Source of the DNA: a virus
Virus record (IMG/VR): IMGVR_UViG_3300014926_000040
Location: 1 to 49,046 of that record
DNA: 49,046 nt
Strand: one strand, 5' to 3'
A program made the position numbers and the translations under genes. The notes under the pieces were generated by a model, which was not told the DNA's origin, made no database searches, and worked only from the letters and a program-made list of their open reading frames with translations. Positions 19,975 through 47,719 of the stretch are shown one piece after another. How positions within the stretch are numbered: the first letter of the stretch is position 1; the number at the start of each line of letters is the position of its first letter.

Positions 19975-20000
19975 TATTTCTAAGTACTTGATTTATAAAG

Positions 20001-20026: not shown

Positions 20027-20031
20027 ATGCT

Positions 20032-20060: not shown

Positions 20061-20116
20061 CAACAATGTAGCAATTTAGCTATTTTTTCATTCACACAGA
20101 CTTAGAGGACATTCTA

Positions 20117-20578
20117 ATGGCACAAAAATTATACGTTAAACTACAAGCACCTACTATTGAATTAGCTATTACTGCTAAAGATGGTGGCAATACTCAAGCT
20201 AGTTTGTTAGCTGGTTTTAAACGCTACCCATCTGAATTAGGTGAAACTAAATTAAAAGAATTTCAGGAACTTTTAGGAAGGACTGATGAAGTAGGTAAAA
20301 ATGCTATTACTGCATTTATAGCTAGTGAAATAGTTTATTTAAAGAAAGCTCCTATAGTTGTAGAAGATACTGATACTGGTACATTAAAAGATGTAGTGGT
20401 AAAAGATACTCGTGATGCAATTAAACCGAATGAAACTCTCTGGGATAGTCCTAAAGAATGCCTAGACGTCCTCCTAGGACACTTCTTAGAATCTAATCCT
20501 TGGAGAGTTTCCCTAATTGAAGGTGTATTAAAAGCTTTAACTAATATGGACTTTAGTACTGATTCAGCAAAAAACTAA
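20117..20578 (+). CDS. Tail assembly chaperone (gpG-like)
   Basis: 153 residues, acidic and helical, starting MAQKLYVKLQAPTIELAI and ending DFSTDSAKN. It lies between the tail tube and tape measure genes. It ends at a slippery A-AAA-AAC (20569-20575) right before TAA, so some ribosomes continue into the gpGT-like product. This is the conserved siphoviral chaperone arrangement. The free form coats the tape measure protein during tail assembly and is absent from the virion. Confidence 0.85.
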   Translation: MAQKLYVKLQAPTIELAITAKDGGNTQASLLAGFKRYPSELGETKLKEFQELLGRTDEVGKNAITAFIASEIVYLKKAPIVVEDTDTGTLKDVVVKDTRDAIKPNETLWDSPKECLDVLLGHFLESNPWRVSLIEGVLKALTNMDFSTDSAKN

Positions 20579-20988
20579 TAGAGGCTGGAGAAGTACTAGG
20601 GCTACTAGCTCTTATAGGACAAAGACAACATAAGACAACAGAAGCAAGAAAGAAAGAAAATGAATCTCTTCTTGCTTTTGGTGGTACTCCTATAGAAGAT
20701 GATGATGAAGATGAATCATTAGCTGACTTAGATGATTCTGATAGTTATCTTTTTCTATGGGATACCAACTTATCTATTTTTGAAATCTATAAGATAGTTA
20801 GACTATATTTATCTGAATACTATGGTATGGATTCAGCCATTCTATTATCGCTTATACAAGATAAAGGATTATCTGTAACTGATACACTAACTAATATTCC
20901 CTATATACATAGTGGTTATGTCAATATAATATCCGATAAGGAAGAAAAAGATGGCAGAGCAGAAGAACAATCTGATTTTAAAACTTAG
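20117..20988 (+). CDS. Frameshifted tail assembly chaperone (gpGT-like, -1)
   Basis: Slippage of one base back on A-AAA-AAC at 20569-20575 moves the ribosome into a 137-codon frame from 20575 to TAG 20986-20988, giving about 290 residues in all. The extension starts LIEAGEVLGLLALIGQ, has an acidic middle (EDDDEDESLADLDDSD) and ends in the tape measure gene with a 38-base overlap. It has no start codon of its own at the beginning, and it accounts for the whole 372-base gap. In lambda the T part recruits tail tube subunits. Confidence 0.85.
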
Positions 20989-23900: not shown

Positions 23901-26900
23901 CTAGTTCTGGCGAAGCCTCTGAAAAGGCAGATAAATTTTTAGAAGAATTAAAAACAAATTTAGATAAAACAAAAATAGAACCTTTTACTTTAGAAATGAA
24001 GGTTGACGCTGACCCGCTAGTAGTAGAAGCTAAAGAGCGTTTAAAAGATGTAACAGATATAGTAGAAAAGACACAAAGAGATTTAGAGCAAAAAGGCCCG
24101 CTATTTACAAATGTTTTTAACTTAGCTAGGCTAGACGAAGATAAAAAAAGAATAGTTGCTTTAGAACAAGCATTAGTAGCTGCTAAAGACCAAGCTTATA
24201 TTAAAGTAACTGTTGATACTGGTGGAGCTTTAAAAGATATAGAAGATATAGCCCAACATTTTAAAGTACTTGCATTAGAAGCTCAAGGACTTTCAGAAGA
24301 AGCAGGTAAGATAAAGTTTGATGAAACTAATAAAAAAGCTATAGAAACTACTCAAGCTAATATAGAAGATGGAATAAAGAATGTAGATAAATGGAGAGCT
24401 ACTCTAAAACAAAAAGAGGAGTTTGAAGCAGCTCATGCAAAGAAAGTAGCTGAAATAGCTAAGTATAATGCAACTAATCCTACTTTTCGTAAAAGTATAA
24501 ATGATTCAAATTATATACAAGAACTTAAAACTTTAGTAAAAGCTTCTCAGGAGGCTTCTACTAACATAGCTAATTATGAAAACTCTCTTCAAGTACAAAA
24601 AAATCAAAAGATTGCTAGAGATACTGCTGGTATAAATAAAGATAAGCAAGAAAAGTTAGAATATACAAACTTTCTACTAGGGCTAGATGCAGTTATTTTA
24701 AAGAGTAGTACAGATTCTCAGAAGCAAAGACAATTTGCAGAACGAACAGCAGAAATAGAAGCAAATAAAGCAAGAGAAACTCAAAGAAAAGCTTACGAAC
24801 AAGTTAAAGCTAGACCAGAAGAACAAAGAACAAAAGAAGATACTAATTTCTTAAATGAAAATGCAAATGTATTAGTTAAAATTGAACAAGCTAAAACAGC
24901 TAAAATTAACGAAGTAATGGAGCGTTTTAATAAGAAGCAGGAATCTGAGACTAATAAACATAATAGTGAAATGAAAAGGTTAAATAAAGACCTTTACAAA
25001 GATTATGAAAGAGATGCTAATCAGGTTGCCCTTGATTTAGACGCTGCTTTAAATAGACAAACTCAAAGATATAACGAACATTTAACAAGTATTAAAGATT
25101 ATTATAGAAATAGAAAAGAATTACGAGAACGTGCTTTTGAAGACCAAGTAGCTATTTTAGTAAAAGAACAAGCTTTGGCTCGGACTAATGGAGATGCTTC
25201 TAAAATTGAACAACTTCAGGATAAAATAGATGCTCTTGAAGCAAAGCTTAAAGCTGCTAATATAGCAGATGCTATACAGCAAACACAAGCACAAATAACT
25301 TATAATAATGCTTTAGCTGATACGAATATACAGTTACAAAGATTACTAGGTAACACAGCAAAAGCAACTAGAATGTCTTTAGAACAAGCAAATAAAAATA
25401 CTAGGGATATATTTAATGCGGAAATTAATAGTAAAACAAATACACCTGCTGAAAAACAAAGAGCCCAAGAAGGTTTAAATAATTTAGATTTATCAGAAGA
25501 AATCCAAAATACAAGAGCTATAGCTGAGGAAACACAAACTTATAAAGATAAAGTAGATGCTGTTAGACTTGCTTATATAGACTTAGGTACGCAAACTTCT
25601 AGTTCTCTTTCTACTTCATTAGGTTCTTTTGGCCCTCTAATGAATACTATAGATACTATGACTGCTGCTTATGCTAATCAGCAAGTAGCTATTGAGAGAC
25701 TAACTGCTGCTGCTGATGAGTTAGCTAAAAATAGAGAATCAGTCTTAAAATTTAAGGCAGAAGGTAGTGATGAAATAAAAGCTATCGATAAACAAATTAA
25801 ACAAAATGCGGCTGAACAAGAACTAGCACAGCAAACTCAGTTTAGAAGTCAAGTAAAAGGTGCTGGAGATACTTTTAGTGCTATAGAGAAGATGACTGCT
25901 AAAAACTCTGCTATAAATAAAGCTGCTCATACTGCTCAAATGGTAATGAATGGTATAGAGTTTGCATTTAAACTAAAAGATATGGCATTGACTATAGTTA
26001 GTTTTACTACTGGGTTTGCTTTAAAAGCTAAAGATATGGCTATGAACATAGCAGCTTTACCTGCTGCACTTTCTTTAGGAGCTGCTCAAATGTTTGCTCA
26101 AAGTGGTTGGGCTGGCTTTGCTGGTGTAGCTGCTATGATAGCTTTAATAGCTGCTATTGGTATTGCAGCATCTGGTGGTAATACAACGACTACTAATACA
26201 TCAATGAAAGAGAGTGATGGTAAAGGAACTACTTTTGGTTATGGGGATAAAGAATCTACTTCTATTGCTGATTCTTTAAAACTAATGCTTGATATTGACT
26301 ATAAGAGTTACAAAGAATTAATTAAAATTGGTAATGGTATTAGAGCTACTGATAATAGTATTACTAAAATTATTAGAGCTAATGCTACTGGGAATTTGCT
26401 AGAAGCAAGTACAGCTAAAACTGGAAGTAAAGATAATATGGCTGTTGTTGCTGGAGCTGCTGTTGCTTTTGCAGCTACAGGTATAGGAGCAATATTCGCT
26501 TTATTGCTCTATGAAAAAGTAACTATTAAAAAATTGGATGAAGGTGTCCATATCATAGCTACTAAAACTAGAGATGTACTAGCAGGCTCAAATGTTTTAA
26601 TTGAGCAATATACTACACTTGAAAAAACTACTTCTAGTGCTTTTGAAACTACAGTAGAAATCTATGATGTAATGCAAAAAGCTTCTAAAGCTGCTGTAAA
26701 ACTATTTACAAACTTGTATTACAATATGGCTAATAGTATTAGAAATCTAGCAGTAGATATCTCTAAAGCAGCTACAGATGCGGTTTATTTATATAAATTT
26801 CCAGAGATAAAAATATCCTTGAAGAATCAAGGTACTGATAAATTTATTAAAAAGATACAAGGTATAATTGGAAAACAATTAGACCTTATGGCTAAGAATG

Positions 26901-29017: not shown

Positions 29018-30567
29018 TGTCATTAATCTATCTAGCTGAATTAAATATAGCTACTTCTAGTGGAGTAGCTACTACTTTATATTTTACTAGTGGAAAAACC
29101 CTATCTGTTAGCGGGCAATCTTATATTGCTAAGATTGCTCAACCAGCTTTTTATGGTCAGAGTATTAGTATAGATAGTTCTATAGGAGGAGCTATAAGTC
29201 CTTCTATAGGAGAGCTTGTTCTTACTAATACTAAAAGAGATTTAGATAGTTATAAAGGTTATATATTTGAAGGTAAATTACTTTATCTTTACACCTATGA
29301 CACAGTTGCACAAACCAAAGTACTTATCCTAACTCAAACAATAGAACAAGCTTCCTTTGAATGGGATAGAGTCTCTATAAGACTACAAAATAGAAGTACA
29401 TTACTAGAAAAACCACTACAGACTGTTAAGTATGGTGGTACTAACACTCTTCCTGATGGTGTAGACGGTGTAAGTGATTTAAAAGGTAAGTATAAACCCT
29501 TGATTTTTGGTAGGGTAGCTAATATAAGTCCTGTTATGGTTAATAGCTCTAAGCTTATTTACCAAGTATCTAGTAGACCTGTAGAGCAGATAGTTTCTGT
29601 TATGTCTAATGGTAACTATATTACACCTATGAATACTTCACCTACTACTTTTGCAGAGTTTACTGCTGAGGTCAACCCTGCTGAGTCTGGTAAGTTTGTA
29701 TTCTTTTCTGATGCTGCTAATGGTACTTTGATTAGATTAGGTATGAACTTTGGTACTATTACTTGCACTAGTTGGGATAACATATCAGCTTTATCTAATA
29801 CACCTGCTCAGATTATAAAAGATGTACTTTTATATGCAGGTCTAACTTCTACTGACTGGATAGAAAGTGACTTTACAACTTTAGATAGTATCATTGCTGA
29901 TAATATAGGTATTGTATTATCTGATGGTCAAACTACTTCTAGTGTTCTTACTGATATCTGTAGTTCTATAGGTGTTTGGTGGGGGTTTGATGCAAACAAT
30001 AAGTTTCGTCTTTACTACTTTGGTTTCTCTGCTACACCTTTAATGACTTTACAGACTTTATCTGGGACTAGTCCTTATGGTATAACTTCTTTTGAAATCT
30101 CTAATGCTAGTGTTAATGGTAAAGCAGTTCCAGCTAAAGAGGTTATAGTTAATTACGATAAGAACTGGACAGTACAAGATAAAGCTAATTTAGCTGGTAT
30201 TATGACAGTAAAGTATCCTGATAGAGTTAATTGGCTTGGTGAAGAATATAGAAAGGTTAATGCTGTTAACTCTACCACTTTAACTAACTACCCAGAAAGT
30301 CAAGTATTTGAATATACTACACTTTTAAATGGTTCTATAGCTGCTACGGCAGAAGCGAATAGAGTTAAAGACTTACTTTCTGTAAAAAGATTTACTATAA
30401 GTGCTACTGCTAGACTAAGTACATCCGACTTAAAATCTCTTTATATAGGTGCTACTATAAAAGTTACTATTCCTAGATATGACTTAAGTGAGGGAGTTAA
30501 TTTTATTATAACTTCTATGGAAGTTGATTATTATAATAGTACAGTAAATTTAACACTCTGGGGATAA
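29017..30567 (+). CDS. Tail tip/baseplate hub protein
   Basis: 516 residues. The first part (YLAELNIATSSGVATTLYF, TSGKTLSVSGQSYIAKI, SPSIGELVLTN) is the pattern of distal tail/hub proteins found after tape measure genes in many siphoviruses. It continues with YKPLIFGRVANISPVMVN and a hub-like C-terminus (IKVTIPRYDLSEGVNFIITS). It probably combines the roles of the lambda M/L/K-J hub as the ring at the tail end. It overlaps the tape measure gene by TAATG. Confidence 0.65.
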   Translation: MSLIYLAELNIATSSGVATTLYFTSGKTLSVSGQSYIAKIAQPAFYGQSISIDSSIGGAISPSIGELVLTNTKRDLDSYKGYIFEGKLLYLYTYDTVAQTKVLILTQTIEQASFEWDRVSIRLQNRSTLLEKPLQTVKYGGTNTLPDGVDGVSDLKGKYKPLIFGRVANISPVMVNSSKLIYQVSSRPVEQIVSVMSNGNYITPMNTSPTTFAEFTAEVNPAESGKFVFFSDAANGTLIRLGMNFGTITCTSWDNISALSNTPAQIIKDVLLYAGLTSTDWIESDFTTLDSIIADNIGIVLSDGQTTSSVLTDICSSIGVWWGFDANNKFRLYYFGFSATPLMTLQTLSGTSPYGITSFEISNASVNGKAVPAKEVIVNYDKNWTVQDKANLAGIMTVKYPDRVNWLGEEYRKVNAVNSTTLTNYPESQVFEYTTLLNGSIAATAEANRVKDLLSVKRFTISATARLSTSDLKSLYIGATIKVTIPRYDLSEGVNFIITSMEVDYYNSTVNLTLWG

Positions 30568-30568
30568 A

Positions 30569-31756
30569 ATGACTTTAGTTTTGTATAAAATTACTACTGT
30601 AGGTAAGACTGTTGTTGCAGATAATACTACACCTCCTAGCGGAAGTAATGCTGTTACTCCTCCAGCTAATCTTACTATTTCTGCTCTTGCTGATTATTAC
30701 AGAACTCTAGATAGAAATGATAACGCATTTCATCCAGCTAATGCTCCTAGTAGTATCTCAGAACAAACAGTAAGTAATGGTATTGATGGTTTATCTGCTA
30801 TTCTTTCTAATGATAATGTTTCCCTATCTTCTGCTAGTGATGGAACAGTAAACTCATTTGCTAATTCTGGTACTAATATTTATATCTACGAAGGGACTAC
30901 TCCTTTAACTTACGATGGAATCGGGACATCTAAAGGAACTTGGAAAATAGATATAACACCTACTGCTGTAAATGTCCCTGCTATTACTAACAATACTAAT
31001 CATGCTACTACAGCAGAACTAACTTCCTTTTCTGCTGATGTAGGTAAACTTACTTTTACTATTAGTGGTACTAATAGTTTTGGTGTTACCTTTAGTTTAG
31101 TTAAAATACAAAACTTTACTAAAGCTAAAAATGGAACTATTGGTTCTAATGGTGCAAGTCCTGGAGCTTTCAGTATTGATAACTCTTTCTCTGCATTTAA
31201 TAAAGATGCTAATGGTGTTTTAAGCCCTAACGCTCTTATTTTATCTACTACAGCTCAGAATATAACAGCTATAACAAGTTATAAATGGCAGAAAAATGGA
31301 GTAGATATAGCTGGAGCTAATTCTTCAACCTTAGCTATAGTAGCTAATACTGATTACCCTTTTGGGACTACTAATAATACATATAAATGTATTGTAACTG
31401 GTACTATAAATGGTGTGGTTGGTGCTTCTTTAAACCATAGTGTAACTATCCCAGTTCTTACAGATGGGAAAGCTTATATTGTAGTTATAGAATCTACTAA
31501 TGGGACTTCATTTAAAGTAGGTCAAGGTAAAACTACTATTTTAAAAGCCTATGTCTTTTTAAATGGTGTAGATGTAACCAACACTATAGACCAACAATGG
31601 TTTAAATGGAGAAGAGTTTCTACTATAATATTAGAACCACCAAATGATGATACTACTTGGGATACATTACATTCTGGATATAAACAAGTAGGTGTAAATG
31701 TGGATGATGTAAGCTCTCAAGCATCATTCTTTTGCGACATAATTAACCCAAATTAA
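30569..31756 (+). CDS. Tail tip protein with Ig-like domain
   Basis: 395 residues. The N-terminus is Pro/Thr-rich. The middle (about 210-300) has ITSYKWQKNGVDIAGANSS followed by YKCIVTGTINGVVGAS, the W...YKC pattern of an immunoglobulin-like domain often seen in tail tips. It ends with a beta domain (QQWFKWRRVSTI). It starts one base after the hub gene. Likely binds host surface sugars or supports the central fibre. Confidence 0.6.
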   Translation: MTLVLYKITTVGKTVVADNTTPPSGSNAVTPPANLTISALADYYRTLDRNDNAFHPANAPSSISEQTVSNGIDGLSAILSNDNVSLSSASDGTVNSFANSGTNIYIYEGTTPLTYDGIGTSKGTWKIDITPTAVNVPAITNNTNHATTAELTSFSADVGKLTFTISGTNSFGVTFSLVKIQNFTKAKNGTIGSNGASPGAFSIDNSFSAFNKDANGVLSPNALILSTTAQNITAITSYKWQKNGVDIAGANSSTLAIVANTDYPFGTTNNTYKCIVTGTINGVVGASLNHSVTIPVLTDGKAYIVVIESTNGTSFKVGQGKTTILKAYVFLNGVDVTNTIDQQWFKWRRVSTIILEPPNDDTTWDTLHSGYKQVGVNVDDVSSQASFFCDIINPN

Positions 31757-31783
31757 TTTTTTACTTTAAATAAAGGAACAAAC

Positions 31784-33289
31784 ATGGCTACATTAGTTTC
31801 CACAGGTCAAATTACTATCGTAGATAATAATGACGCTCGTACAATATCCGCTATACTTGCCTCTAGTGGCGGAACACAACAAGTCTTTACAAAAGACGAA
31901 TCAACAGTTACTTTTGCCCCTGATTGGTTTACATCCCCTATAACTTTTACACCTAAGTTATTTATTAGCGGTATGACTGAAGCCCAAATATGGGCGGCTT
32001 TAAACAACAAACAATTTGCTTTTACACAAGCTGGAAGCTCTTTAGCTACATCTACAGCTATAAGCTCTCCTGTTTTTGTAAATACTTCTAATGCTTCATT
32101 ATCACCTAATACACCACTTACGGTAACACATGGTGCAGGTGGTGCTTCTCTTGTATCGACTCTGCAACTTAAGGGCAATTTACCTGAAGGCGCTTCTTCT
32201 CTTTCAATATTCTTTGATGCTGATTTTGTAGATCCAATTACAGGTTTAACTACACATATTTCTTGTCAAAATGAAATAAGTGCCGTAAAAACAGGTACAA
32301 ACGCTGTTTTTATTGTGATTAGAGGACAAACAAACGTAGAGCAGTCTACTTCTGGAACAAAAGCAAATATTGCTGTTGCTGCTGATTTAATACGCAGTAG
32401 TGGTACAGACACCACTAATTTGTCTTATAAGTGGTTTGATTCAAGTGCTCAAATTTCTACATCTACTAGTGGTTATGCTACGAAATATGGTTTCAAAAAT
32501 ACAGCATCAAATACTATTCCCACAGCAGCGGCTAATGAGTTAAACGTAAACGTACCAGTCTCTGGCTCAGGTACCTTTCACGCATCGCTACCTGTAAACA
32601 CAATGGTTTTGAGTGAACTTGCTATTAATAATATAGGTATTTACAGAGTAGAAATTACAGATGCAGATAGTAAAACATATTCTCAATACTTTACAATTTA
32701 TGATATAACTGACCCATATACTGTACGAATCAATTCTTCTACAGGCGATAAGTTACAAAATGGTATAGGTTCTACTACTTTAAGTGCGAAAGTTATATAT
32801 GGTGCTACTGAAATTGCAAGCTACACTGGGTGGTCTTTTGACTGGAAATTCTACGATAAGGATGGTAAAAGAGGTTCATTTATAGACACTTCCGCCGGTA
32901 AAATACCAGCTAATGGGTATCCTATTTCTGCTAATACTGCTTTAACTACTGGTGCATTTACAGTAACTTTTACTGGAAGTACACTTAGCTTTGCCGTAGG
33001 GGATATTGTAAAAGTATTAAGACCTAATGGTACTGCTTTATTCTTTGAAGTAGGTACTGCAAGTACAAACAGCAACACTATCAATCTTCGTACAACTGGT
33101 GTGACAAGTACTTGGCTAGTCGCTACTGATTTTGTTGGGCCTGCCACCGCTGATTTATTTAAAGATGGAAAAGTATTCAGTTGTATCACTAATGGTATAA
33201 AAAATACAACAGGTACTGCTACATTCACTGTGAGTGGGGACGAAATTGATGTTAAGGGTATGATTACCTGTGAAGCAAATAGACCATAA
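31784..33289 (+). CDS. Tail tip fibre-like protein with shared N-terminal module
   Basis: 501 residues. The first 17 residues (MATLVSTGQITIVDNND) match the start of the next gene, so both probably dock on the same tail site. The remainder is Thr/Ser-rich beta structure with an Ig-like stretch (LSYKWFDSSAQISTSTS) and a second one near 360 (WSFDWKFYDKDGKRGSF). AAGGAAC precedes the ATG. Probably a component of the central tail fibre or tip. No enzymatic motif seen. Confidence 0.6.
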   Translation: MATLVSTGQITIVDNNDARTISAILASSGGTQQVFTKDESTVTFAPDWFTSPITFTPKLFISGMTEAQIWAALNNKQFAFTQAGSSLATSTAISSPVFVNTSNASLSPNTPLTVTHGAGGASLVSTLQLKGNLPEGASSLSIFFDADFVDPITGLTTHISCQNEISAVKTGTNAVFIVIRGQTNVEQSTSGTKANIAVAADLIRSSGTDTTNLSYKWFDSSAQISTSTSGYATKYGFKNTASNTIPTAAANELNVNVPVSGSGTFHASLPVNTMVLSELAINNIGIYRVEITDADSKTYSQYFTIYDITDPYTVRINSSTGDKLQNGIGSTTLSAKVIYGATEIASYTGWSFDWKFYDKDGKRGSFIDTSAGKIPANGYPISANTALTTGAFTVTFTGSTLSFAVGDIVKVLRPNGTALFFEVGTASTNSNTINLRTTGVTSTWLVATDFVGPATADLFKDGKVFSCITNGIKNTTGTATFTVSGDEIDVKGMITCEANRP

Positions 33290-33301
33290 TAGGATTTAAA
33301 A

Positions 33302-36300
33302 ATGGCATCATTAGTAAGTGTTGGTCAAATAACTATTACTGATGTAAATGATGGAAGCAGTAATTTTACTGCTTTCATTTATTTACAACAATTAGGACAG
33401 CCTAGTGACCCTTCTGGGGGTTCATATAACTTTACAACAAATACTTTAACTGTACCATCTGGTGGTTGGTCAGCCAGTATGCCTACTGCCAGTACAACTC
33501 CTATATGGATTTCTACTTATCTGTTTTCTACTACTGTAACTGGTTCTACTGTAACTGGAGGTACATGGAGTGTTCCTAAATTATTCAGTCGTAATGGTAC
33601 TGATGCTAATACTATTACTACTATTGGTATTAATTATGACGCTCAACTTGCAGGTCTTAGCGGTCAAAAAATAACTATAAAAGGTATTGATTATACTGTC
33701 GCAAATACTGGACATTCTTTAGTAATATTTCGTCCTAGTACTGGAGCTGTTATATCTGGGCCTACTTTATACGGTACTTATGCTGATGGTACAGTTACTG
33801 GAGCTTCAACTCCTATTAATAACTTAGTAAATGCTTTAAATGGTATGACTACTGGAGATATAGCTATTATATCTACAGCAGATGCTTGTAGTTGTCCTCA
33901 AATACTAAGAAATGCTTTACTAAATTTTGGTTCAAGCATAGCTAAAACATGGATTCCTAGTCGAGTATCACATGTATTTATAGGTCAAAAAGGAGGTTTA
34001 GCTGGTTCTGCTTATGAACAAACAGCTACTGGAGCTGGCAAAGATGCTATTATTACAGCTACAGCTATCTTTACTACCTCTGGTTTAGACCAAAATATAT
34101 CTAATACTAGTAATAATATACCTATAGATTTATACCAACAAGCCACTTCTACTCCTGCTTTACCAACTAAAACTGCATATGATGTTATAACTAATGTATT
34201 GTATGGAGCTACTGGTACTAATACACTTGCACCATCATGGTCTAATACATTACCAACTACTTTAGGTGTAACTACTTCAACAAGTGCAAGTTCTTCGCCT
34301 GCTGGTGTTGGCACTACTGTGGTTAATGGTACTGACACTACTGTATATCATTACGGATTAGGTTTAACTCATACGGCTAATGAAATTCATACCACTTCTC
34401 TGTATGTAAAAGATAACACTAATACTGCTGGAACTTTTAGTATTACGTTTGGTTCTGCTGATAGTACTAGTGGTATCTCAGCATCATTTACTATTGCTGC
34501 AGGAACTACAAACGGCACTATAACTACTACAACACCAAACTTTACTTGTGCTGCTGTAGCTGGTTATGCTGGATGGTATAGAATTACTTGTACCTATGTT
34601 CCAGTTATAGTTAATACTACTATGGTATGGAGTGTACCTACTGCTAGAAGTTTTGATGTATCTGGTTTTATGATAGAGCCTGGAGCTAGTGCAACTACTT
34701 ATATTACTTCTACTAATACACTTGGAAGTTGGACTAGAACTTTACCATCAACAATACTTAAACCTACTTACTCTAGTACTTGTTATTTCAAATCTAATCC
34801 TAATAATAAGACTATTGTAGATGCTAGTTGGACTACCGCTTATATCAGTCAAGGCACTAGAAGTAACTTTAAAACCGCAACAACTGTAGGTAGTGCCGCT
34901 TGGTCTGACGCTACAGCAAATACTGCTATTATAGCTATCACTGGTTCTGGTGGCGGTATGGTAGTTGATGATGAGGTAACTTTATGTTATCCTACAGTTG
35001 CTACACCAAGTTTTATTTACACTAAAAAAGTTACTGCTGTTGGTACACCTCCTACTACAGCTACTTGGTCTGATACTGGGCAAGTAATTGACGGTAATTT
35101 ACTTGTTACAGGTACTTTGAGTGCTGCTGCTTTGAAGACAAGTACTTTAAATGCAACTACTGCTATTACAATAGGTACTTCTAGTGATGGTATTAATATA
35201 AGTGGAACTACTAATAATATTACAGTTAAAAACTCTAGTTTAAATAGAGTTAAAATAGGTAATCTAGATACTGACTATGGTATAGAAGGTTTTGCAAATA
35301 AAACAGGAACTAATTTATCTCTTGGCTATATTCTGCAAGATAATGTATATCAGATTGTAACTAGGTCAGCCTCAGAGTTTAATTTTGTCCCTTATGGGGC
35401 TTCATCTAACGCTGATGGTATTACATTTACTGCAACTGCTGACGGCCCTGTAGGAACTAATACTGCACTACTTAGTCATACATACCTAACAGGACAAACA
35501 TTACATGCTAATACTAGAGTTGATATAATTAGTTTAGGTAATACAACAAAAACACAACTAACTACAATGGGTTTTGTTACATCTACAGCAGCAGCTACAC
35601 TTACATATTCTATGTATTATGTTATTGTAGAATTAGGTACAACAACAAACTGGAATACTATGTTTAATACTACAGGTATTACATATACACAAGGTGGCAT
35701 CTATTTTAACAATAGTACTGCTGATAAGGTTTTTGTAGGTAATGGTGTATTTATAAAAAAATCTGGTTTATACCCTACCGTAACTTCTACCGTTTTGGGG
35801 ACAATTTCGCTTAATTCTTCTGAAGTTGTATCTAGTAAAATGCTTACAGGTTATAGTTATACTATTCAAAGGACTTCTACTTATAGTACCACAGTCCTTA
35901 CTACAGTTGGGGCCCCAAATACAAACCCTGGAACTATTTTTACAGCTACTGGAAGTTTAGATCCCTCTTTAAATTATAATGCTGGAAGTGGTAATGGTTA
36001 TGATGGTTTCGTAAATCTTATACAGGCTCGTAGTTTTCAGTTAAATAGTAATGGGCTTTCTGTTTACCAAACTTCTCAATCTTTACGAAGAGGTGGTGGT
36101 AATTACACATTACCTGTATTAGCAGAAGGAAAAGTTTTACTTACTAGTACTGTTGCAGGGCAATTAACGGCTACTATTCCAATTATTGCAGAAGTTAAGT
36201 CATGGCCAAAGGTAGGAGCATATAGATTATACGCTCAAATTTGTGGATATTATATAAGTAGCGTGGGTACTGCTTCTGATGCTTTTTCAGTCTCTATAGC

Positions 36301-36583
36301 AGCTACTGGTTACTTTGATGGTGTTTTAAATGTACAACAATTAGCAGCTACTCCTGTAGTATCAGGACAATCTACTGACACTGTTAATTTACCTTTAGCA
36401 TCTATAGCAACTTTTTCTCTAATTGATTCGGCTAGTTTTACTGGTAAAGTAGTTAATCTTATTTTAAAATCAAGAGTAGCACAACCAGCAGACGGGCAAA
36501 CAACTTTTAGGTATGTTGTATGGGTAATGGACGATGGTAATGATTATTTATCTAATGCTTTCTATAATCCTGAAAGGTGGTAA
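33302..36583 (+). CDS. Large tail tip/central fibre protein
   Basis: 1093 residues, beginning MASLVSVGQITITDVNDGS, a module like that of the gene before it and of many gpJ-type host-specificity proteins. It is followed by long Thr/Ser/Ala-rich beta regions with several carbohydrate-binding-like segments and a C-terminal VVWVMDDGNDYLSNAFYNPE. Being the largest tip protein, it is the best candidate for the primary receptor-binding fibre. In lambda this role sits on one gene (J). Here it seems split over four. Confidence 0.65.
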   Translation: MASLVSVGQITITDVNDGSSNFTAFIYLQQLGQPSDPSGGSYNFTTNTLTVPSGGWSASMPTASTTPIWISTYLFSTTVTGSTVTGGTWSVPKLFSRNGTDANTITTIGINYDAQLAGLSGQKITIKGIDYTVANTGHSLVIFRPSTGAVISGPTLYGTYADGTVTGASTPINNLVNALNGMTTGDIAIISTADACSCPQILRNALLNFGSSIAKTWIPSRVSHVFIGQKGGLAGSAYEQTATGAGKDAIITATAIFTTSGLDQNISNTSNNIPIDLYQQATSTPALPTKTAYDVITNVLYGATGTNTLAPSWSNTLPTTLGVTTSTSASSSPAGVGTTVVNGTDTTVYHYGLGLTHTANEIHTTSLYVKDNTNTAGTFSITFGSADSTSGISASFTIAAGTTNGTITTTTPNFTCAAVAGYAGWYRITCTYVPVIVNTTMVWSVPTARSFDVSGFMIEPGASATTYITSTNTLGSWTRTLPSTILKPTYSSTCYFKSNPNNKTIVDASWTTAYISQGTRSNFKTATTVGSAAWSDATANTAIIAITGSGGGMVVDDEVTLCYPTVATPSFIYTKKVTAVGTPPTTATWSDTGQVIDGNLLVTGTLSAAALKTSTLNATTAITIGTSSDGINISGTTNNITVKNSSLNRVKIGNLDTDYGIEGFANKTGTNLSLGYILQDNVYQIVTRSASEFNFVPYGASSNADGITFTATADGPVGTNTALLSHTYLTGQTLHANTRVDIISLGNTTKTQLTTMGFVTSTAAATLTYSMYYVIVELGTTTNWNTMFNTTGITYTQGGIYFNNSTADKVFVGNGVFIKKSGLYPTVTSTVLGTISLNSSEVVSSKMLTGYSYTIQRTSTYSTTVLTTVGAPNTNPGTIFTATGSLDPSLNYNAGSGNGYDGFVNLIQARSFQLNSNGLSVYQTSQSLRRGGGNYTLPVLAEGKVLLTSTVAGQLTATIPIIAEVKSWPKVGAYRLYAQICGYYISSVGTASDAFSVSIAATGYFDGVLNVQQLAATPVVSGQSTDTVNLPLASIATFSLIDSASFTGKVVNLILKSRVAQPADGQTTFRYVVWVMDDGNDYLSNAFYNPERW

Positions 36584-36585
36584 TT

Positions 36586-37059
36586 ATGTATATTATTCTT
36601 TATACAAAAGACGAAAATGCTTTAAATGAGTTTGTAACTACTATAAAAGAAAAATATATGGTAGAGCTAGACCCGACCAATATTAATTGGAAATATGCTA
36701 TAGATAGAACAGATATAACTACTAGTTATGATTTGAGTGATTTACCTATTACCTATGATGATATTAAGTCTATTATACATTGCCAGTTTATGTTAGTTGA
36801 GTCTAGAGATTATGTAAAAATAACACAAGTTTTTATAAACTCAACAGAAGTAGATAAAACAACTATTCAAGCAGATGGTATAGATACTGTAACCTTTTCT
36901 AATGCACCAGTAGGCACTATCACTATAAAAAATAGTGAAGAAGTTTCAGGGACAATCGAAGGAACTGACACCTTTGCAACTACTATAGCTGGAACATATA
37001 ATATAACTATTATATGTGATGGCTATGAAGATTTTACTACTACTATTGAGGCAATCTAA
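36586..37059 (+). CDS. Unknown tail-region protein, possibly fibre-associated
   Basis: 157 residues from ATG 36586, chosen because AAAGGTGG lies five bases before it. A GTG at 36577 would add three residues. The N-terminal half starts MYIILYTKDENALNEFVT and ends near SIIHCQFMLVES. The second half is an Ig-like or beta-sandwich domain (VFINSTEVDKTTIQADGID to GYEDFTTTIEAI). The two-part shape recalls fibre-assembly or tip-cap proteins. No family is recognised. Confidence 0.6.
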   Translation: MYIILYTKDENALNEFVTTIKEKYMVELDPTNINWKYAIDRTDITTSYDLSDLPITYDDIKSIIHCQFMLVESRDYVKITQVFINSTEVDKTTIQADGIDTVTFSNAPVGTITIKNSEEVSGTIEGTDTFATTIAGTYNITIICDGYEDFTTTIEAI

Positions 37060-37376
37060 TGCCATTTTTAATTACTAAACCGTTAGAAGAACAGAAAGTT
37101 GAATTTAAAACTACTATTAATACTATAACAGGTGAAAAAATCCTTGCTAAGTACCCAGACTATGTACAAAGAAACATGACTGCTAGATATGTAGAACTAC
37201 TTTCTCTTACTGAGCTAGATACTCCTGAAGCTTTAGCTCTTAAAGCTAGCTGGGACTGGATAAAAGATATAAGAAGTAGGAGTAATATAGCTAATCTTGG
37301 TATAGATAATGCTAGTAATTTTGTAGAAGTGAGAAATATCTTAACAAATTATACTATTGAAATAACCAACTTGTAG
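37059..37376 (+). CDS. Unknown small protein after tail tip genes
   Basis: 105 residues, start overlapping the previous stop (TAATG). The product is helical: NMTARYVELLSLTELDTPEA, then LALKASWDWIKDIRSRSN. Small proteins with such a Trp-containing helix often follow fibre genes and assist assembly. No confident family. The last gene of the tail-tip transcription run before a 139-base gap. Confidence 0.6.
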   Translation: MPFLITKPLEEQKVEFKTTINTITGEKILAKYPDYVQRNMTARYVELLSLTELDTPEALALKASWDWIKDIRSRSNIANLGIDNASNFVEVRNILTNYTIEITNL

Positions 37377-37445
37377 CATCAAACGTGCCATTTAATTAAG
37401 CAAATAATTAAAATAAAACTGTACTTTTAGTAGGGAAAGAGTAGA

Positions 37446-37494
37446 CTAGGAACTGAATCTAAGAGTTAGGTTCAATGTCCTAGCATATTCTAGG
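37446..37494 (+). promoter_or_regulatory. Overlapping alternative hairpins in a leader
   Basis: CTAGGA (37446-37451) can pair with TCCTAG (37478-37483), enclosing TGAATC/GGTTCA. The same CCTAG (37479-37483) can instead pair with CTAGG at 37490-37494. The two folds exclude each other and lie 20-70 bases before the next gene, as expected for an RNA switch or attenuator. There is no clear promoter or T-run in 37377-37515. Confidence 0.35.
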
Positions 37495-37515
37495 TTTTCA
37501 GAACGTGAGGTCTAT

Positions 37516-38280
37516 ATGACTATAGGAACTGAAACAGATACTTCTACTTTAAACACTCTACTAAAAGGTACAGATATGGGAAATTTATTCGGTGCAGGTA
37601 ATGGCAGTACTACAGAAGGCTTAGTACTTGGTATGCTATTAGGTCGAGGTGGTTTATTCGGTAATAATGGTAATGGTCTTGCTGATGGTGCTGGTGGAGC
37701 TATGTTACGCATTCCTCCTGAACAAGCTACTGCTAACATGTCGTTAATGTCTGGTATTGGTGATTTGAAACAAGCAGTAGCAGTTGGTGTTGCTACTACT
37801 GAAACTTCTAATGCTAACCAAACAGGGCAGCTTACTGCTGCTGTTTTATCTTCTACTAGTGCTAATCAAATTGCTGTTTCTGGTGTTAAAGATGTAGTAA
37901 ATGCTAACTCAGTAGTGTTGATGCAACAATTAAATACTGTTAATACTAACATCATGGAGTCTAAGTATGAAATTGCTCAGACTATTACTAATGATGGTGA
38001 TAAAACTCGTGCTTTAATTACTGCTAATATGGTTACTGAATTGAATAACCAAATAGCAGACTTACGCACTCAACGTGCAGTTGATTCTGGTAATGTTACT
38101 GTAACCAATAATATTAACCAAAACCAATTGCAAATGCAACAACAACAACAATTAGTTACTACTAATGGCTTGTTACAACAATTATTGGCAGAACAAAGAA
38201 TTACTCAAGGTGTATTGAACATCGGTAGTGGTACTGTTTCTGGTAATAGTCAAACAGCAGCTAATACTAGAGTAGCCTGA
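37516..38280 (+). CDS. Probable virion protein, Gly-rich with coiled coil, ending at a leaky UGA
   Basis: 254 residues. The N-terminal third is Gly-rich (LFGAGNGSTTEG, LLGRGGLFGNNGNGLADGAGG). The rest is a heptad-like coiled coil with Gln-rich end (NQNQLQMQQQQQL). Proteins of this design occur near phage structural genes and may be capsid-associated or head-fibre proteins. GAGGT precedes the ATG. The stop is TGA followed by C, and the frame then stays open for 68 more codons (see the readthrough product). Confidence 0.65.
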   Translation: MTIGTETDTSTLNTLLKGTDMGNLFGAGNGSTTEGLVLGMLLGRGGLFGNNGNGLADGAGGAMLRIPPEQATANMSLMSGIGDLKQAVAVGVATTETSNANQTGQLTAAVLSSTSANQIAVSGVKDVVNANSVVLMQQLNTVNTNIMESKYEIAQTITNDGDKTRALITANMVTELNNQIADLRTQRAVDSGNVTVTNNINQNQLQMQQQQQLVTTNGLLQQLLAEQRITQGVLNIGSGTVSGNSQTAANTRVA

Positions 38281-38487
38281 CTAGCTAATGCTGAACAGGT
38301 TATTATAGTAGTAGATACTGACCCTCCTACTCCTGCTCCTAGCACAGACGATGACACTTCTGATACATCTTCAGGGGAAGATAACGAGGAAACAGAAGAT
38401 TGCGATGAGGAAGAATGGGAAGAAGACGAAGAAACTACCAGAAAACCTATAAGAAACGGTCTAAAAGAGTTAAAAAAGGATAAGTAA
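37516..38487 (+). CDS. Putative readthrough product with acidic C-terminal extension
   Basis: If TGA 38278-38280 is read as an amino acid, the frame continues for 68 sense codons to TAA 38485-38487, three bases from the next ATG. The extension is LANAEQVIIVVDTDPPTPAP, then a Ser/Asp/Glu-rich acidic stretch with EEEWEEDEE, ending GLKELKKDK. It has no ATG, GTG or TTG, so it cannot easily be a separate gene. UGA followed by C is the weakest stop context known in E. coli. Readthrough gives 323 residues. Not proved. A sequencing error is possible. Confidence 0.5.
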
Positions 38488-38859
38488 ATGTCTGATTCAA
38501 TAGAATTACTACAAAAGCAGTTAGCGACTTTACAGGCACAGTCTGTTACACCAAGTCCTGCTAGTCCAGTTGTTTCTATGTCCATTGAGGACTTGAAGCA
38601 AGTCGTTAAAGCCGTCATTGCTGAGGAGGTAACTCTATTGAAACAGGAAGGTATCCCTACTAAACCTGTTGAGAATATGTCATTACTACAATCAATAGGT
38701 TTAGGTTTAACTGAAGAAGAACAAATTTGGTTGTCTGCTAGTGATAAACTCCAAGGAGTTGAGAAACATCTACCATTGTTTTTTCAAACTGAGGATGGAA
38801 AACTAGCAGTACAATCTTTTATCTTATACTATCGAGGTGTGTATGATTGTAAAACATAG
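38488..38859 (+). CDS. Unknown 123-residue protein
   Basis: AAGGA lies inside the acidic extension frame just before this ATG. The N-terminal helix SIELLQKQLATLQAQS is followed by a Pro/Ser linker, a helical MSIEDLKQVVKAVIAEEVTL and a Leu-rich C-terminal domain (LLQSIGLGLTEEEQIWLSAS). No family is recognised. It may be a small structural or regulatory protein of the late operon. Confidence 0.65.
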   Translation: MSDSIELLQKQLATLQAQSVTPSPASPVVSMSIEDLKQVVKAVIAEEVTLLKQEGIPTKPVENMSLLQSIGLGLTEEEQIWLSASDKLQGVEKHLPLFFQTEDGKLAVQSFILYYRGVYDCKT

Positions 38860-39079
38860 TATTGAAACTGAGAAAGCGGAGGCTGATATGCTATTTGAAC
38901 TAGTATCTTCTATTTGTCTTGCTGTTTATCCTAGTGTAGAAGAACAAACTCTACATGTAGAAGCAGCAAAACTGACATTCAAGAATGCACTAGATGAAAT
39001 AGTACATCATTCCTTTAAGATAGGACAGAAAGTCTGTTCTACTGCTGATGAAAAAGATACAGAAATGTATAAAGTGTAA
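38843..39079 (+). CDS. Unknown 78-residue protein
   Basis: Starts at ATG 38843 (GAGG five bases before); a GTG two codons upstream is also possible. It overlaps the previous gene by 17 bases. The product is helical: ETEKAEADMLFELVSSICLA, then HVEAAKLTFKNALDEIVHHS. Unknown function. Last rightward gene before the convergent replication operon. Confidence 0.6.
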   Translation: MIVKHSIETEKAEADMLFELVSSICLAVYPSVEEQTLHVEAAKLTFKNALDEIVHHSFKIGQKVCSTADEKDTEMYKV

Positions 39080-39108: not shown

Positions 39109-39798
39109 TTAAATTGCCCAGTTTAAGTGGATTTTATCTACTTTTCTACCTGTTTTTCCTACTGTTAGTACCACTTTAGCTAGTTTTTTCGCCTCTAATT
39201 CCTTAATTACAGGAACTAAAATATCTCTTTTTACATACTTAAACTCCCTGTAAACTCCTTTTGCTTCAATCATATTCACAAAATCTTCTAAGAATATTGT
39301 AACTGTACCAGTTTTCTTCTTAAACCTGCTTTGTGTTGCAATTAGTTCCCATATTCTAGAAGTGTATTTGCTTGTGAAACTACCTACTTCTATCATCTTA
39401 ATAGTGCAGTAATCCTTAAGTTCCACTAGTTGCGGAACAATAGAAGGATGCCATTGAAGCTCAATAAAGTCTTCTTTCTCATTAAATGAGCTGGTTATCA
39501 CCCAACGAAGCTTCCAAACTCTTTCATCTTTGTCTTTATAAGCTAATTCTCTCCTATAGAGTTGTTCAGCAGCATGTTTAAGACTTTCTCTTGCATTTTG
39601 TAAAGTTGTTCCTCTAATGGAAGCGAACTCTGCTACTGTTACTCTGAAGAGTTTCTCTTTATCTAGTTCTTTGCCTTGGTCTATTCCCGCTAGTACGATA
39701 TAAACTATACTCTTTTCACTTGCAGATAGGTCATAGTTAGCAGTTATTAGTGGAAGACTAACTGCTATACTGTAATCAGATATGTCTTTTTTAATCAT
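39109..39798 (-). CDS. Plasmid-type replication initiator, Rep_3 family
   Basis: 229 residues with the duplicated winged-helix layout of Rep_3 (RepB/RepE-like) initiators. The first half holds LSASEKSIVYIVLAGI and VTVAEFASIRGTTLQNARES. The second half has VGSFTSKYTSRIWELIATQS and the C-terminal DNA-recognition part FKYVKRDILVPVIKELEAKK. Such proteins bind iterons at a plasmid origin and also repress their own synthesis. Candidate iterons lie at 40854-40900, at the head of the same operon. AAAGG precedes the ATG. It is the last of four co-transcribed genes. Confidence 0.88.
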   Translation of the reverse strand: MIKKDISDYSIAVSLPLITANYDLSASEKSIVYIVLAGIDQGKELDKEKLFRVTVAEFASIRGTTLQNARESLKHAAEQLYRRELAYKDKDERVWKLRWVITSSFNEKEDFIELQWHPSIVPQLVELKDYCTIKMIEVGSFTSKYTSRIWELIATQSRFKKKTGTVTIFLEDFVNMIEAKGVYREFKYVKRDILVPVIKELEAKKLAKVVLTVGKTGRKVDKIHLNWAI

Positions 39799-40036
39799 TT
39801 GAGCCTTTGTATAGTTCTGTTACTTTACAGTATTTACAAGTTCTTGTAGCTGGTTTAACTTTATAAAACTCACTTATAGGTTTACCGTTAAAAGAGGTTT
39901 CTACCATCCAAGCTATAGGTTCTTGCTCAGGTTGGTCTAGTGCAGTCTGTATATCCCAATATAAGTCATAATGGGTTTCTTTTAATTCACGCAATGTATC
40001 TCGTACTCTTCTCAACAACTCTCTTTCTTTACTCAT
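39791..40036 (-). CDS. Unknown small protein upstream of rep
   Basis: 81 residues from ATG 40036, or 82 from the adjacent ATG 40039. Helical N-terminus (ERELLRRVRDTLRELKETH), a PEQEPIAWMVETSFNGKP segment often seen in small phage proteins, and a single CKYC pair near the end that alone is too little for a zinc site. It overlaps rep by 8 bases and the upstream gene by a few, so it is translationally linked to the initiator. No function known. Confidence 0.6.
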   Translation of the reverse strand: MSKERELLRRVRDTLRELKETHYDLYWDIQTALDQPEQEPIAWMVETSFNGKPISEFYKVKPATRTCKYCKVTELYKGSND

Positions 40037-40208
40037 CATCTGTCTCCACTAAATAACCCTCCCAAACAATTGCTTTCATCACCCTAAAAGTATAACCAAT
40101 ACCTCCATCAAACTGCTTAACATACTCCTCCGCCTCCTCCAACTTCTCAAACACAAACTCTACATCGTTACTACTTGTTTCTTGTACTACATATACTACT
40201 TTACTCAT
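40029..40208 (-). CDS. Unknown 59-residue acidic protein
   Basis: Start at ATG 40208, chosen because GGAGAATAAG sits just before it and its upstream neighbour stops there. A further ATG at 40235 would add nine residues inside that gene. The product MSKVVYVVQETSSNDVEFVF is followed by EKLEEAEEYVKQF, an alpha/beta pattern seen in short phage proteins. Function unknown. Part of the rep operon. Confidence 0.6.
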   Translation of the reverse strand: MSKVVYVVQETSSNDVEFVFEKLEEAEEYVKQFDGGIGYTFRVMKAIVWEGYLVETDDE

Positions 40209-40209
40209 C

Positions 40210-40749
40210 TTATTCTCCAATCCATTCAGGAACACTTCTACCCTTCCAACCCCACAACTCCTTCTTACCTCTCCTATAATACTCCCTATAACTCTCCAAA
40301 CTATCCCCCTCTACCACAAATTCATCTGGCATAGCTGGTGTAGGTTCACTAAACTCTTTATCCTCTATCCTCTTAGGACTATTAACATACAACAAGTCCA
40401 CTAATCCTGAATACTCACACTTATGCACTTTTCCATACCTGTAGGTATACTCTTTACATAACTCAGACAGCAGTTCTGCCAGCCATCTATAGTTTGCTTC
40501 GCTTTGTCTAACCCAAACTGCACTTGGATGATTAACATGAGTAGCTTTGTAAAGGTTCTCCAACTCACCCTCCAACTTCCACCTTTTAATCCTCCTCCCG
40601 CTACTTCTATCCTCCCACTCCCGCCCATCCAATACTCTATGAGCAGTTGACAGCAACTGTGAATACTCCAGCACCATCTTCACAACATGCTTATCCACAT
40701 GTTGTTCTGCACAAACTCCAGCATCTTTATCTAAGTAGAATATGTTCAT
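40210..40749 (-). CDS. Conserved phage protein of unknown function (HVDKHVVKM family)
   Basis: 179 residues in a family widespread in phages. Conserved motifs: HVDKHVVKMVLEYSQLLSTA (17-36), ATHVNHPSAVWVRQS (69-83), YTYRYGKVHK (101-110), EPTPAMPDEFV (134-144) and the end RGKKELWGWKGR. The many conserved His, Asp and Trp residues suggest an enzyme, but I know no proven activity. It heads the four-gene rep operon, with AGAGGAC before its ATG. A truncated copy lies at 1-156. Confidence 0.8.
   Translation of the reverse strand: MNIFYLDKDAGVCAEQHVDKHVVKMVLEYSQLLSTAHRVLDGREWEDRSSGRRIKRWKLEGELENLYKATHVNHPSAVWVRQSEANYRWLAELLSELCKEYTYRYGKVHKCEYSGLVDLLYVNSPKRIEDKEFSEPTPAMPDEFVVEGDSLESYREYYRRGKKELWGWKGRSVPEWIGE
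40612..40725 (-). repeat. Inverted 114-bp repeat, copy 2
   Basis: Exact reverse complement of 1-114, covering codons 9-46 of the gene here. It contains TTATCCACA (40691-40699), a perfect match to the DnaA-box consensus, but the same bases encode the conserved HVDKH. Confidence 0.9.
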
Positions 40750-40758
40750 TTTGTCCTC

Positions 40759-40804
40759 TTTAAACTCCAGTTTTGTTATGTTGAGAGTGTTTTAAACTCC
40801 AGTT
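40759..40804. repeat. 14-bp direct repeat in the leader of the rep operon
   Basis: TTTAAACTCCAGTT at 40759-40772 and again at 40791-40804, a 32-base step (three helical turns). It lies between the promoter and the first ATG, so it could be an operator or a leader element. Confidence 0.65.
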
Positions 40805-40816
40805 AATCCAAAGCTT

Positions 40817-40845
40817 ATTATAGCAAAATGTGAAGTTTTTGTCAA
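40817..40845 (-). promoter_or_regulatory. Consensus promoter of the rep operon
   Basis: Reading leftward, TTGACA (40845-40840), 17 bases, TATAAT (40822-40817): a perfect sigma-70 promoter. First ATG is 68 bases downstream, past a 14-bp direct repeat. Confidence 0.9.
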
Positions 40846-40853
40846 GTGGTTTT

Positions 40854-40907
40854 CACCTAATTTATGATTTAGCTCACCTATCTAATGATTAGGCTCACCT
40901 TTAGCGG
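40854..40907. repeat. Iteron-like 21-bp repeats (candidate Rep_3 origin)
   Basis: CACCT begins at 40854, 40875 and 40896, an exact 21-base period. The two complete units also share TGATT (40865, 40886) and GCT at the end (40872, 40893). The third unit is partial. They lie directly behind the -35 of the rep operon promoter. Spacing of two helical turns and closeness to a Rep_3 gene are typical of plasmid iterons. Confidence 0.65.
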
Positions 40908-40909
40908 TT

Positions 40910-41366
40910 TTTCCTGTTATGAATCAAGCACTTACCGCCCCCCTAAAAGTAAAAGGAGAGCCAATCCACCAGCCGAGCCATGCCCATGAATCCCCTGTCT
41001 ATATACTGCTGTTTGTCTAACTTTCTCTCTTGTTTGTGGAGGAACTTCTGTGTGAACTAGGAGGACTTCTGCTTGTGTGGAAGAGGAACTGCTTTGTGTT
41101 TGTGGGTGAGTTCCTGCTCTAGCGACTTGTGAGTTGTTTATGGAATTAGTATTTGGAAACTGGAGGAGTGGGATTTTGATTGGGGAAAAAGGTGGTATGT
41201 AGATGAGAGACGCCTATTAAGTTTACGCACCGTTCTGAACTGCTGGAAGTACCTTTCTACTTATCTTAATAACTTGGTGGTTACTTCCTTGTAACCTGGT
41301 GACACGAAAACCTGTTGAGTAATACCTAGACAAAGGGTAACTTAACTTGCTGAATATCGCAATAAG
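40910..41366. other. Gene-poor stretch with GT-rich DNA
   Basis: No convincing gene of any size was found. It holds AGGAACTTCTG/AGGACTTCTG near-repeats, two copies of GTTTGTGG (41032, 41098), an inverted copy of the AGTCGCTAGAG element (41117-41127), and a hairpin GGTTAC-6-GTAACC (41279-41296). Base composition differs from the neighbours. Possibly part of the origin, a partition site or a non-coding RNA. Confidence 0.5.
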
Positions 41367-41519
41367 TCATTTTAACCTTCTCTCTCTTTTACTATGCATC
41401 AAGAAAGCAGATACCAGATACCAGATACCCGCGCCCACAACTATTTTATAATCGATTAATAACCCTAGAATGATTATAAATACGCCTATATTAAATATCA
41501 GTTTTGTTATTAAGTCCAT
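41367..41519 (-). CDS. Small two-span membrane protein
   Basis: 50 residues: MDLITKLIFNIGVFIIILGL, a short LIDYKIVV turn, GAGIWYLVSAFLMH and a basic tail SKRERRLK. Two hydrophobic helices with the positively charged end predicted inside. The start follows a weak TAGGCGG. It lies downstream of the 41591 gene, beyond the 26-bp palindrome. Candidates include a toxin, a holin-like or an exclusion protein, none supported further. Confidence 0.55.
   Translation of the reverse strand: MDLITKLIFNIGVFIIILGLLIDYKIVVGAGIWYLVSAFLMHSKRERRLK
41409..41429. repeat. Three tandem AGATACC units
   Basis: The 7-bp unit AGATACC occurs three times head to tail at 41409-41429, within the coding frame of the 50-residue membrane protein on the other strand (7-mer, so codons shift between units). 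Confidence 0.85.
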
Positions 41520-41552
41520 AAACCGCCTATATTATTAAAGTTATTTTGAGTT

Positions 41553-41578
41553 GCTACACTATAATATTATAGTGTAGC
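41553..41578. repeat. Perfect 26-bp palindrome
   Basis: GCTACACTATAAT followed immediately by its exact mirror, with no loop. No T-run follows on the leftward strand, so it is not a standard terminator. The half-site ACACTATAA recurs at 42846, 42886 (inverted) and 43580. More like a protein-binding or recombination site. Confidence 0.8.
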
Positions 41579-41590
41579 GGTTTGAAGTAT

Positions 41591-46321: not shown

Positions 46322-47719
46322 TTATGCTCCTATATAATCTTCAATTATTTCATCTAATTCAAAAGGAATACTAACTTTATACTTTCCTCTTGTTACTGCT
46401 ACATATAGCTGATTCAGAATCTCTCTATTTATTATATACCTAACCCCGTTCTCTCCCTCATTACTAGGAATAACATCATCAGCAAGTGTAACTTCATCCC
46501 ATTCAAGACCTTTACTCTTATGAATAGTAGAAAGAGTGAAATCTGCTAATTCTTCTCTATCTACAATACAAGATTTAATCTTATTAATATTATTATACAA
46601 TCCACCATTAGATAACTTATAGGATGCTTTAATAAGTCTAGCAAGTTCTGGCATCTTCTCAGAAGCTTCTACAAGGTGTTTATAAGTAGCATACTGTGAC
46701 AACTCTTTATCAGGATACTTAATTGTTTGTCCGAAACATAAAGAATTAATATGGTACAACTTTGCCCACAAGTCTTTAAGGTCTGCTAGGATATAAACCT
46801 TTTTATCCTTATCATAAGCATCTAGTAGGATATCCAGAAGCTTACTGTTTGTTCTAACAAGAACTGCTTGTGAGTTAATTGCTCCTTTAGTAGCTTTACC
46901 TATGATTGCTCTAGTGTTACCTGCTTTAGCTGTAATTCCTGTAGCTAGTTTAGCTATCTCAGAAGTGAATCTAAAACTCTCAGACAAGTAGAACTCCTTG
47001 TAACCTACAGGAACATAGTCTAAGGCATTAGTAGCACCTCTCCACTCATATATAGCTTGGAAAGAATCACCAACAAGTATAATTTGAGCATGTTTCTGTT
47101 GGTAAACAATATCTAATGTAACTGGGTTAGAGTCCTGAGCTTCATCTAAAAGAATCAAAGAGTAGTTTAAAACTGGTTTAGATAGCTGGAACAGTTTTAA
47201 ATAAACATCATGGGTTATTTTACCATTTGTAGCTGGATTAACTATAAAGTTCCAGTAGTTTACTGCTCCTAGTCTAACCACTTCTATAAACATATCATCT
47301 TCTTCAAATATCCCTACAAACTCTTCAATAGTTTGAACAGAAGACTGGCAGAAGTTCTTAACAAGAGCTGTAACAAGTAGTTTATACTCAATATTAGCTT
47401 CTACACCTTTGTTAATATCAGGTATATCCTGCATACTAAAGAAACCTTGTAGTTTCTTACCAAAAGCAGACTTTGTATTCTTGATAATTGCGCCCCATGC
47501 TAGCGAGTGCATAGTCTTACAAGTTACATAAGATGGAAACTTATTACTAGCTTCTTCCGCTATGCTCTTATTAAAGGCAACATATAGAGCTTGTTTACCT
47601 AATTCCTTTGCTACTTCTACAAGGGTATAAGTCTTACCAGTTCCAGCGAAAGCTCTTACCACCATAGAAGTTCCTGTTTTAGCTGATTCTACAATTTGTT
47701 CTTGTTCTACTGTTCTCAT
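46322..47719 (-). CDS. SF1 DNA helicase (UvrD/Rep-like)
   Basis: 465 residues with all SF1A hallmarks. Walker A AFAGTGKT is at 23-30, motif Ia VAFNKSIA at 48-55, Walker B LLDEAQD at 190-196 and motif III GDSFQAIYEWRGA at about 217. Motif V STIHKSKGLEWDEV is at about 403 and motif VI NQLYVAVTRGK near 440. It is shorter than UvrD and resembles phage Dda-like helicases. It would unwind DNA during replication or recombination and is the only replication enzyme in the window apart from Rep_3. The start overlaps the previous gene by one base. Confidence 0.93.
   Translation of the reverse strand: MRTVEQEQIVESAKTGTSMVVRAFAGTGKTYTLVEVAKELGKQALYVAFNKSIAEEASNKFPSYVTCKTMHSLAWGAIIKNTKSAFGKKLQGFFSMQDIPDINKGVEANIEYKLLVTALVKNFCQSSVQTIEEFVGIFEEDDMFIEVVRLGAVNYWNFIVNPATNGKITHDVYLKLFQLSKPVLNYSLILLDEAQDSNPVTLDIVYQQKHAQIILVGDSFQAIYEWRGATNALDYVPVGYKEFYLSESFRFTSEIAKLATGITAKAGNTRAIIGKATKGAINSQAVLVRTNSKLLDILLDAYDKDKKVYILADLKDLWAKLYHINSLCFGQTIKYPDKELSQYATYKHLVEASEKMPELARLIKASYKLSNGGLYNNINKIKSCIVDREELADFTLSTIHKSKGLEWDEVTLADDVIPSNEGENGVRYIINREILNQLYVAVTRGKYKVSIPFELDEIIEDYIGA

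Follow-up and report, generated by a model that had tools for sequence, protein, structure and literature searches.

A plasmid-type Rep_3 initiator with iteron-like repeats in an environmental tailed-phage lineage, and signs of its repeated replacement

The window, the whole 49,046-bp stretch of DNA analysed here, joins the virion genes of a tailed phage to a plasmid-type Rep_3 initiator and 21-bp iteron-like repeats. Sequence comparison gives good support to the view that this iteron/Rep_3 module is a real part of the phage lineage and no oddity of a single contig. We think it probable that the module serves mainly to initiate replication in the infection cycle, in the manner of lambda O, and that its initiator has been swapped as a cassette. 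Coordinates are collected in Table 1.

Table 1. Features of the window and of its replication module
Feature	Position	Strand	Remarks
IMG/VR record IMGVR_UViG_3300014926_000040	1-49,046		whole record; environmental tailed phage
Virion block	9940..39079	+	terminase, portal, protease, decoration, major head, tape measure, tail, small 3'-end genes
Rep_3 initiator	39109..39798	-	229 aa; WH1 + WH2; plasmid-type subfamily
ORF of rep operon	39791..40039	-	82 aa; kin in G017 (67%) and G018 (46%)
ORF of rep operon	40029..40235	-	68 aa; no family match
First rep-operon gene	40210..40749	-	phrog_624 'DNA binding protein' family; 179 aa, full length
Inverse-copy segment	40612..40725		114 bp; exact inverse copy is the record's left tip, 1-114; inside first rep-operon gene
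Promoter	40817..40845	- (40845->40817)	TTGACA-17-TATAAT, extended -10, 12/12
Iteron-like repeat copy 1	40853..40873	-	core TTAGGTGA; 7 bp upstream of -35
Iteron-like repeat copy 2	40874..40894	-	core ATAGGTGA
Third core	40895..40902	-	AAAGGTGA; 21-bp spacing kept
Non-coding candidate origin region	40750..41590		841 bp; AT peak 41450-41590 (72-76%)
Perfect palindrome	41553..41578		26 bp; terminator-like; 3' end of upstream leftward genes
SF1 (UvrD/Dda-like) helicase	46322..47719	-

An earlier note on this DNA had read the virion genes as lambda-like, and at profile level this holds, with matches for TerL (phrog_15), portal (phrog_21), protease (phrog_53), major head (phrog_29) and decoration (phrog_49). 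Within the 2,688-aa tape-measure gene, positions 21718-22404 hold internal repeats of 68-73% identity. The 49,046-bp record has no terminal repeat; its ends are open, and part of the genome is probably missing. The note had also proposed that a leftward operon ends with a Rep_3-type initiator. A run of four overlapping ORFs does extend from 40749 to 39109, and a profile search matched both initiator domains in the product of its last gene, well over the curated Pfam cut-offs for the Rep_3 family (PF01051 + PF21205): WH1 with Rep3_N at 1.3e-22 and 81 bits (cut-off 22.4), and WH2 with Rep3_C at 1.4e-8 and 35 bits (cut-off 21.1). A six-frame search for Rep_3 gave 1.4e-24. The protein aligns to the PDB sequences of pPS10 RepA, mini-F RepE and R6K pi. 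Its AlphaFold model is of moderate confidence (pLDDT 65); in a Foldseek search with it the top 49 matches were Rep_3-type initiator structures (E 7e-11 to 4e-6), the best PDB fold matches of this pLDDT 65 model being pi and RepE bound to iterons. Among viral contigs the window's Rep had no close relatives. The helicase encoded further along the window is a possible replication partner, and its relatives that carry Rep were distant matches only.

The promoter of the rep operon, predicted to be a perfect TTGACA-17-TATAAT, is indeed the sole 12/12 sigma-70 site in 38000-49046. Just upstream of its -35 element, the AGGTGA core occurs three times at exact 21-bp spacing. The repeats of 21-base period announced behind the promoter are thus present, as two full units and a third core and not as a long array. 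When the 841-bp intergenic region was shuffled 500 times, their self-match score of 16.0 was never reached; nor was the repeat score of the 180-bp upstream region in 2000 shuffles. Some dyad symmetry is seen in each unit. Elsewhere, the gene at 44712-45566 contains a 34-bp direct repeat (45309-45342 and 45510-45543, 88%), each copy of which holds a ATAGGTGA core like that of the iterons. A DnaA box, TTATCCACA, at 40691-40699 fits the consensus; it was set aside because such sites are no commoner in the window than expected by chance and this one lies in the phrog_624 coding sequence. GC skew was rejected as an origin marker, being confounded by gene orientation. Rfam found no structured RNA in the window, and the non-coding region gave chance-level matches only.

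Related phages were gathered by terminase searches and are mostly fragmentary viral records. Rep_3 was found in five kin of the virion lineage (G005, G007, G011, G015 and G018), all other metagenome records, and each also holds the clade's virion genes, so that virion genes and a plasmid-type initiator stand on one molecule in the window and in five further records. The module may not be universal in the clade, given that Rep_3 was undetected in G016 (63.9 kb) and G017 (39.7 kb), possibly fragments. DNA preceding the rep operon is present in five records (the window and four kin). Every one has a direct-repeat pair of period 21-22 there, close to a promoter-like site and some 85-150 bp ahead of the operon's first start codon, and in each case no shuffle out of 2000 reached its score. 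Among 196 regions upstream of genes in these five records, the rep operons occupy ranks 1-5, scoring 15.8-19 against 11 for the next. The repeat sequences vary from phage to phage and the layout is constant. In the window and G005 alike, the rep operon lies just past, and opposite to, homologous last genes of the virion block, the G005 operon following the homologue of 38837-39079 in matching place and orientation. One small gene (window 592-903, minus strand; G005 34933-35241, plus strand; 57% identical) has moved, as it lies beside the endolysin region in the window and next to the rep operon in G005.

The type of initiator does not follow the descent of the virion genes. The Rep tree, drawn from few and divergent sequences and poorly resolved on its plasmid side, contains two fully supported clades, one of G005, G007, G011 and G015 and the other uniting the window and G018 with the Reps of plasmids and of KS14. 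In the TerL and capsid trees the window and G005 are sisters, as are G015 and G018. Mapped against these trees, Rep type shows 2 changes, and thus appears to have been exchanged at least twice. A 97-aa gene of G018 (210-503) comprises the WH2 half only of a phage-type Rep_3, as expected of a displaced old initiator, and a full plasmid-type Rep_3 is encoded elsewhere in that record. The comparisons point to repeated initiator replacement between sister phages, which is new here. In the window and G018 lines, the initiator and its cognate repeats appear to have been exchanged together, as one cassette; in which direction each exchange went we can only infer.

We picture the working of the module as follows. 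A Rep monomer would bind the 21-bp repeats and then melt the adjoining AT-rich non-coding DNA; a replicative helicase would be brought in, either the host's or one aided by the phage SF1 helicase; and theta replication would start on the injected, circularised genome. As the level of Rep rose, its binding beside the promoter would damp its own operon. The Rep_3 (RepB/RepA/pi) iteron theta plasmids, such as pPS10, R6K and mini-F and small mobilizable plasmids of Enterobacter and Moellerella, have in common with the window the two winged-helix domains and upstream direct repeats of 21-22 bp. The plasmid relatives and KS14 have an iteron period of 21 or 22 upstream of rep, several share an AGGTG core, and the Enterobacter iteron starts with ATAGGTGAG, like one window repeat. 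Identity of the Reps is about 30%. Whereas these plasmids carry 3-4 repeats, the window has two full ones plus a core, with rep as the last of four genes; unlike them, it has a virion gene set, and no mobilisation or partition genes were found in it. Lambda O offers a functional parallel, as a phage initiator that acts on few direct repeats and starts theta replication during infection; an iteron-binding initiator can thus serve lytic replication alone. It belongs to a protein family unrelated to the window's Rep, and its iterons lie inside the O gene.

In Vibrio cholerae, the PLE satellite RepA, a plasmid-type initiator, and its iterons replicate the satellite during lytic infection, and phage SF1B helicases have been discussed for this replication (PMC7145576). 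PLE is a precedent for a plasmid-type initiator acting in lytic infection; its RepA differs in being of the RepA_N family, not Rep_3, and in serving a satellite, not a phage. Within the clade, G015 encodes a DNA polymerase A, a ligase and a helicase besides its Rep_3, a combination that suits use in lytic growth. Its polymerase A is split over two overlapping frames (7400-11105; 658 + 585 aa), which may come from a split gene, from an intervening element or from an error in sequencing. G016, in which Rep_3 was undetected, has polymerase A and dUTPase, and also a 130-aa TerL-like piece (37686-38078, minus strand) apart from and additional to the full terminase gene. The window itself has no integrase and no DNA polymerase, as stated earlier, the latter verified for family A polymerase; no primase showed among the window ORFs scanned, in a search that used no dedicated primase profile. 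Nothing can be read from its missing polymerase: the record is probably incomplete, polymerase, ligase and helicase occur in G015 together with Rep_3, and the lack may only reflect the missing part. Several points count against our reading of the module: Rep_3 was undetected in some kin, the number of repeats is below that of several well-known iteron plasmids, rep lies away from the repeats, and the choice between a lytic and a plasmid role rests on gene absence in incomplete records.

The note had concluded that the phage persists as a plasmid. Its starting point, a Rep_3 replicon with iterons, is well supported, whereas upkeep as a plasmid is the weaker inference: ParA (PF13614), ParB (PF02195) and an HTH_3 repressor were detected in none of 17 clade records (the window and 16 kin, incomplete). 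Plasmid maintenance is possible, and a temperate phage whose prophage persists as a circular plasmid by means of Rep_3 and the iterons, as in KS14, is the strongest of the competing explanations, though we hold it to be rather unlikely. Burkholderia phage KS14, a phage-plasmid of the Peduoviridae, has a 27%-identical Rep_3 with about three upstream 22-bp iterons, and its prophage, which has been isolated, is a plasmid (PMC3091744). Further in its favour, plasmid-type replication genes are reported to be frequent in phage-plasmids and very rare in ordinary phages (PMC10879196), and neither kind of recombinase was detected in the clade: no serine recombinase in the 17 records, and no tyrosine integrase in clade records, which are incomplete and include ones of 46-64 kb. 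Yet KS14 has ParA and another virion type, and no partition gene was found in the window. Extrachromosomal mycobacteriophage prophages likewise have a plasmid-like initiator, of RepA type, whose transcription runs opposite to that of the virion genes (PMC7157519); they have parABS, none of which was found in the window's clade. The polymerase A, ligase and dUTPase of the kin are genes of lytic type. No close relative turned up among 72,556 plasmids (best plasmid terminase, 31%) or in one genome each of 84,980 species (best, a 34% partial match), and no bacterial genome with a close relative indicates a host. The iteron/Rep_3 module is of a known kind; what is new is its place in a tailed-phage clade where no genes for plasmid maintenance were detected and where the initiator seems to have been exchanged repeatedly.

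A temperate phage that integrates and uses Rep_3 only after induction, its integrase and repressor lying in the unassembled part of the genome, is improbable. It would suit the open record ends, and an integrase occurs in distant terminase kin (Marinobacter phage PS3) and in the distant G022, but none is found in the close clade records, the longest included, and genome contigs gave no prophage-like match beyond the 34% partial one. We give marginally less credence to the view that the repeats are operators of a regulator and no origin, with Rep_3 turned transcription factor or the module decaying. There are just two full repeats, abutting a promoter and with dyad symmetry, and the WH2-only Rep relative in G018 could speak for decay; against this, both domains of the window's Rep are intact, in length and position the repeats match the iterons of related plasmids, and four kin (G000, G007, G015 and G018) have some 0.8-2.2 kb of non-coding DNA on the far side of theirs.

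The left end of the record calls for care. The left tip and its 114|115 junction are suspect because 1-114 is the exact inverse copy of 40612-40725. G001 is identical to the window across 21.7 kb, and its end holds 55 bp of that junction; its positions 1-13 are GTATAAGAGACAG, a piece of the Nextera mosaic end, that is, an untrimmed adapter in a public viral contig. Shared junction, identity and adapter start together indicate that G001 is probably not independent of the window. Exact inverted copies also join the end of a contig to a site within it in G018 (1-91 and 35144-35234, 91 bp) and G016 (63768-63880 and 42132-42244, 113 bp), and lie close by each other in G015 (54952-55027 and 54774-54849, 76 bp). 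Such end-linked copies of 76-114 bp thus occur in 4 records of one clade and in 0 of 173 other locus pieces, a comparison weakened by the shortness of those pieces. Chimeric reads are the simplest reading, with real inverted duplications as the alternative; a biological terminal inverted repeat or an inversion isomer was also considered for 1-114. No contigs were found that extend the right end or carry iteron DNA of the same species. The rep operon is taken as sound because the phrog_624 gene continues unbroken over 40611|40612. An assembly chimera, a plasmid replicon misjoined to a phage contig, is the least likely explanation of all, even though the inverse copy of the tip sits in the rep operon and the window's Rep is nearer to the Reps of plasmids than to that of the sister phage, because Rep_3 co-occurs with the same virion genes in five kin records, in G005 in equal place and orientation.

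We tentatively entertain a broader picture of a non-integrating, possibly virulent phage lineage. Rep_3 and iterons would be its core replication function beside its own DNA polymerase; initiator and cognate repeats would have been replaced repeatedly by cassettes from the plasmid pool, perhaps escaping incompatibility or interference, with WH2-only remnants left behind. The case also warns against calling a phage a phage-plasmid on the strength of its Rep gene alone. Sister phages with differing initiator types offer a natural series for the exchange of origins between plasmids and phages, and the lineage also lets one ask whether lytic replication can be driven by an iteron initiator together with a phage polymerase.
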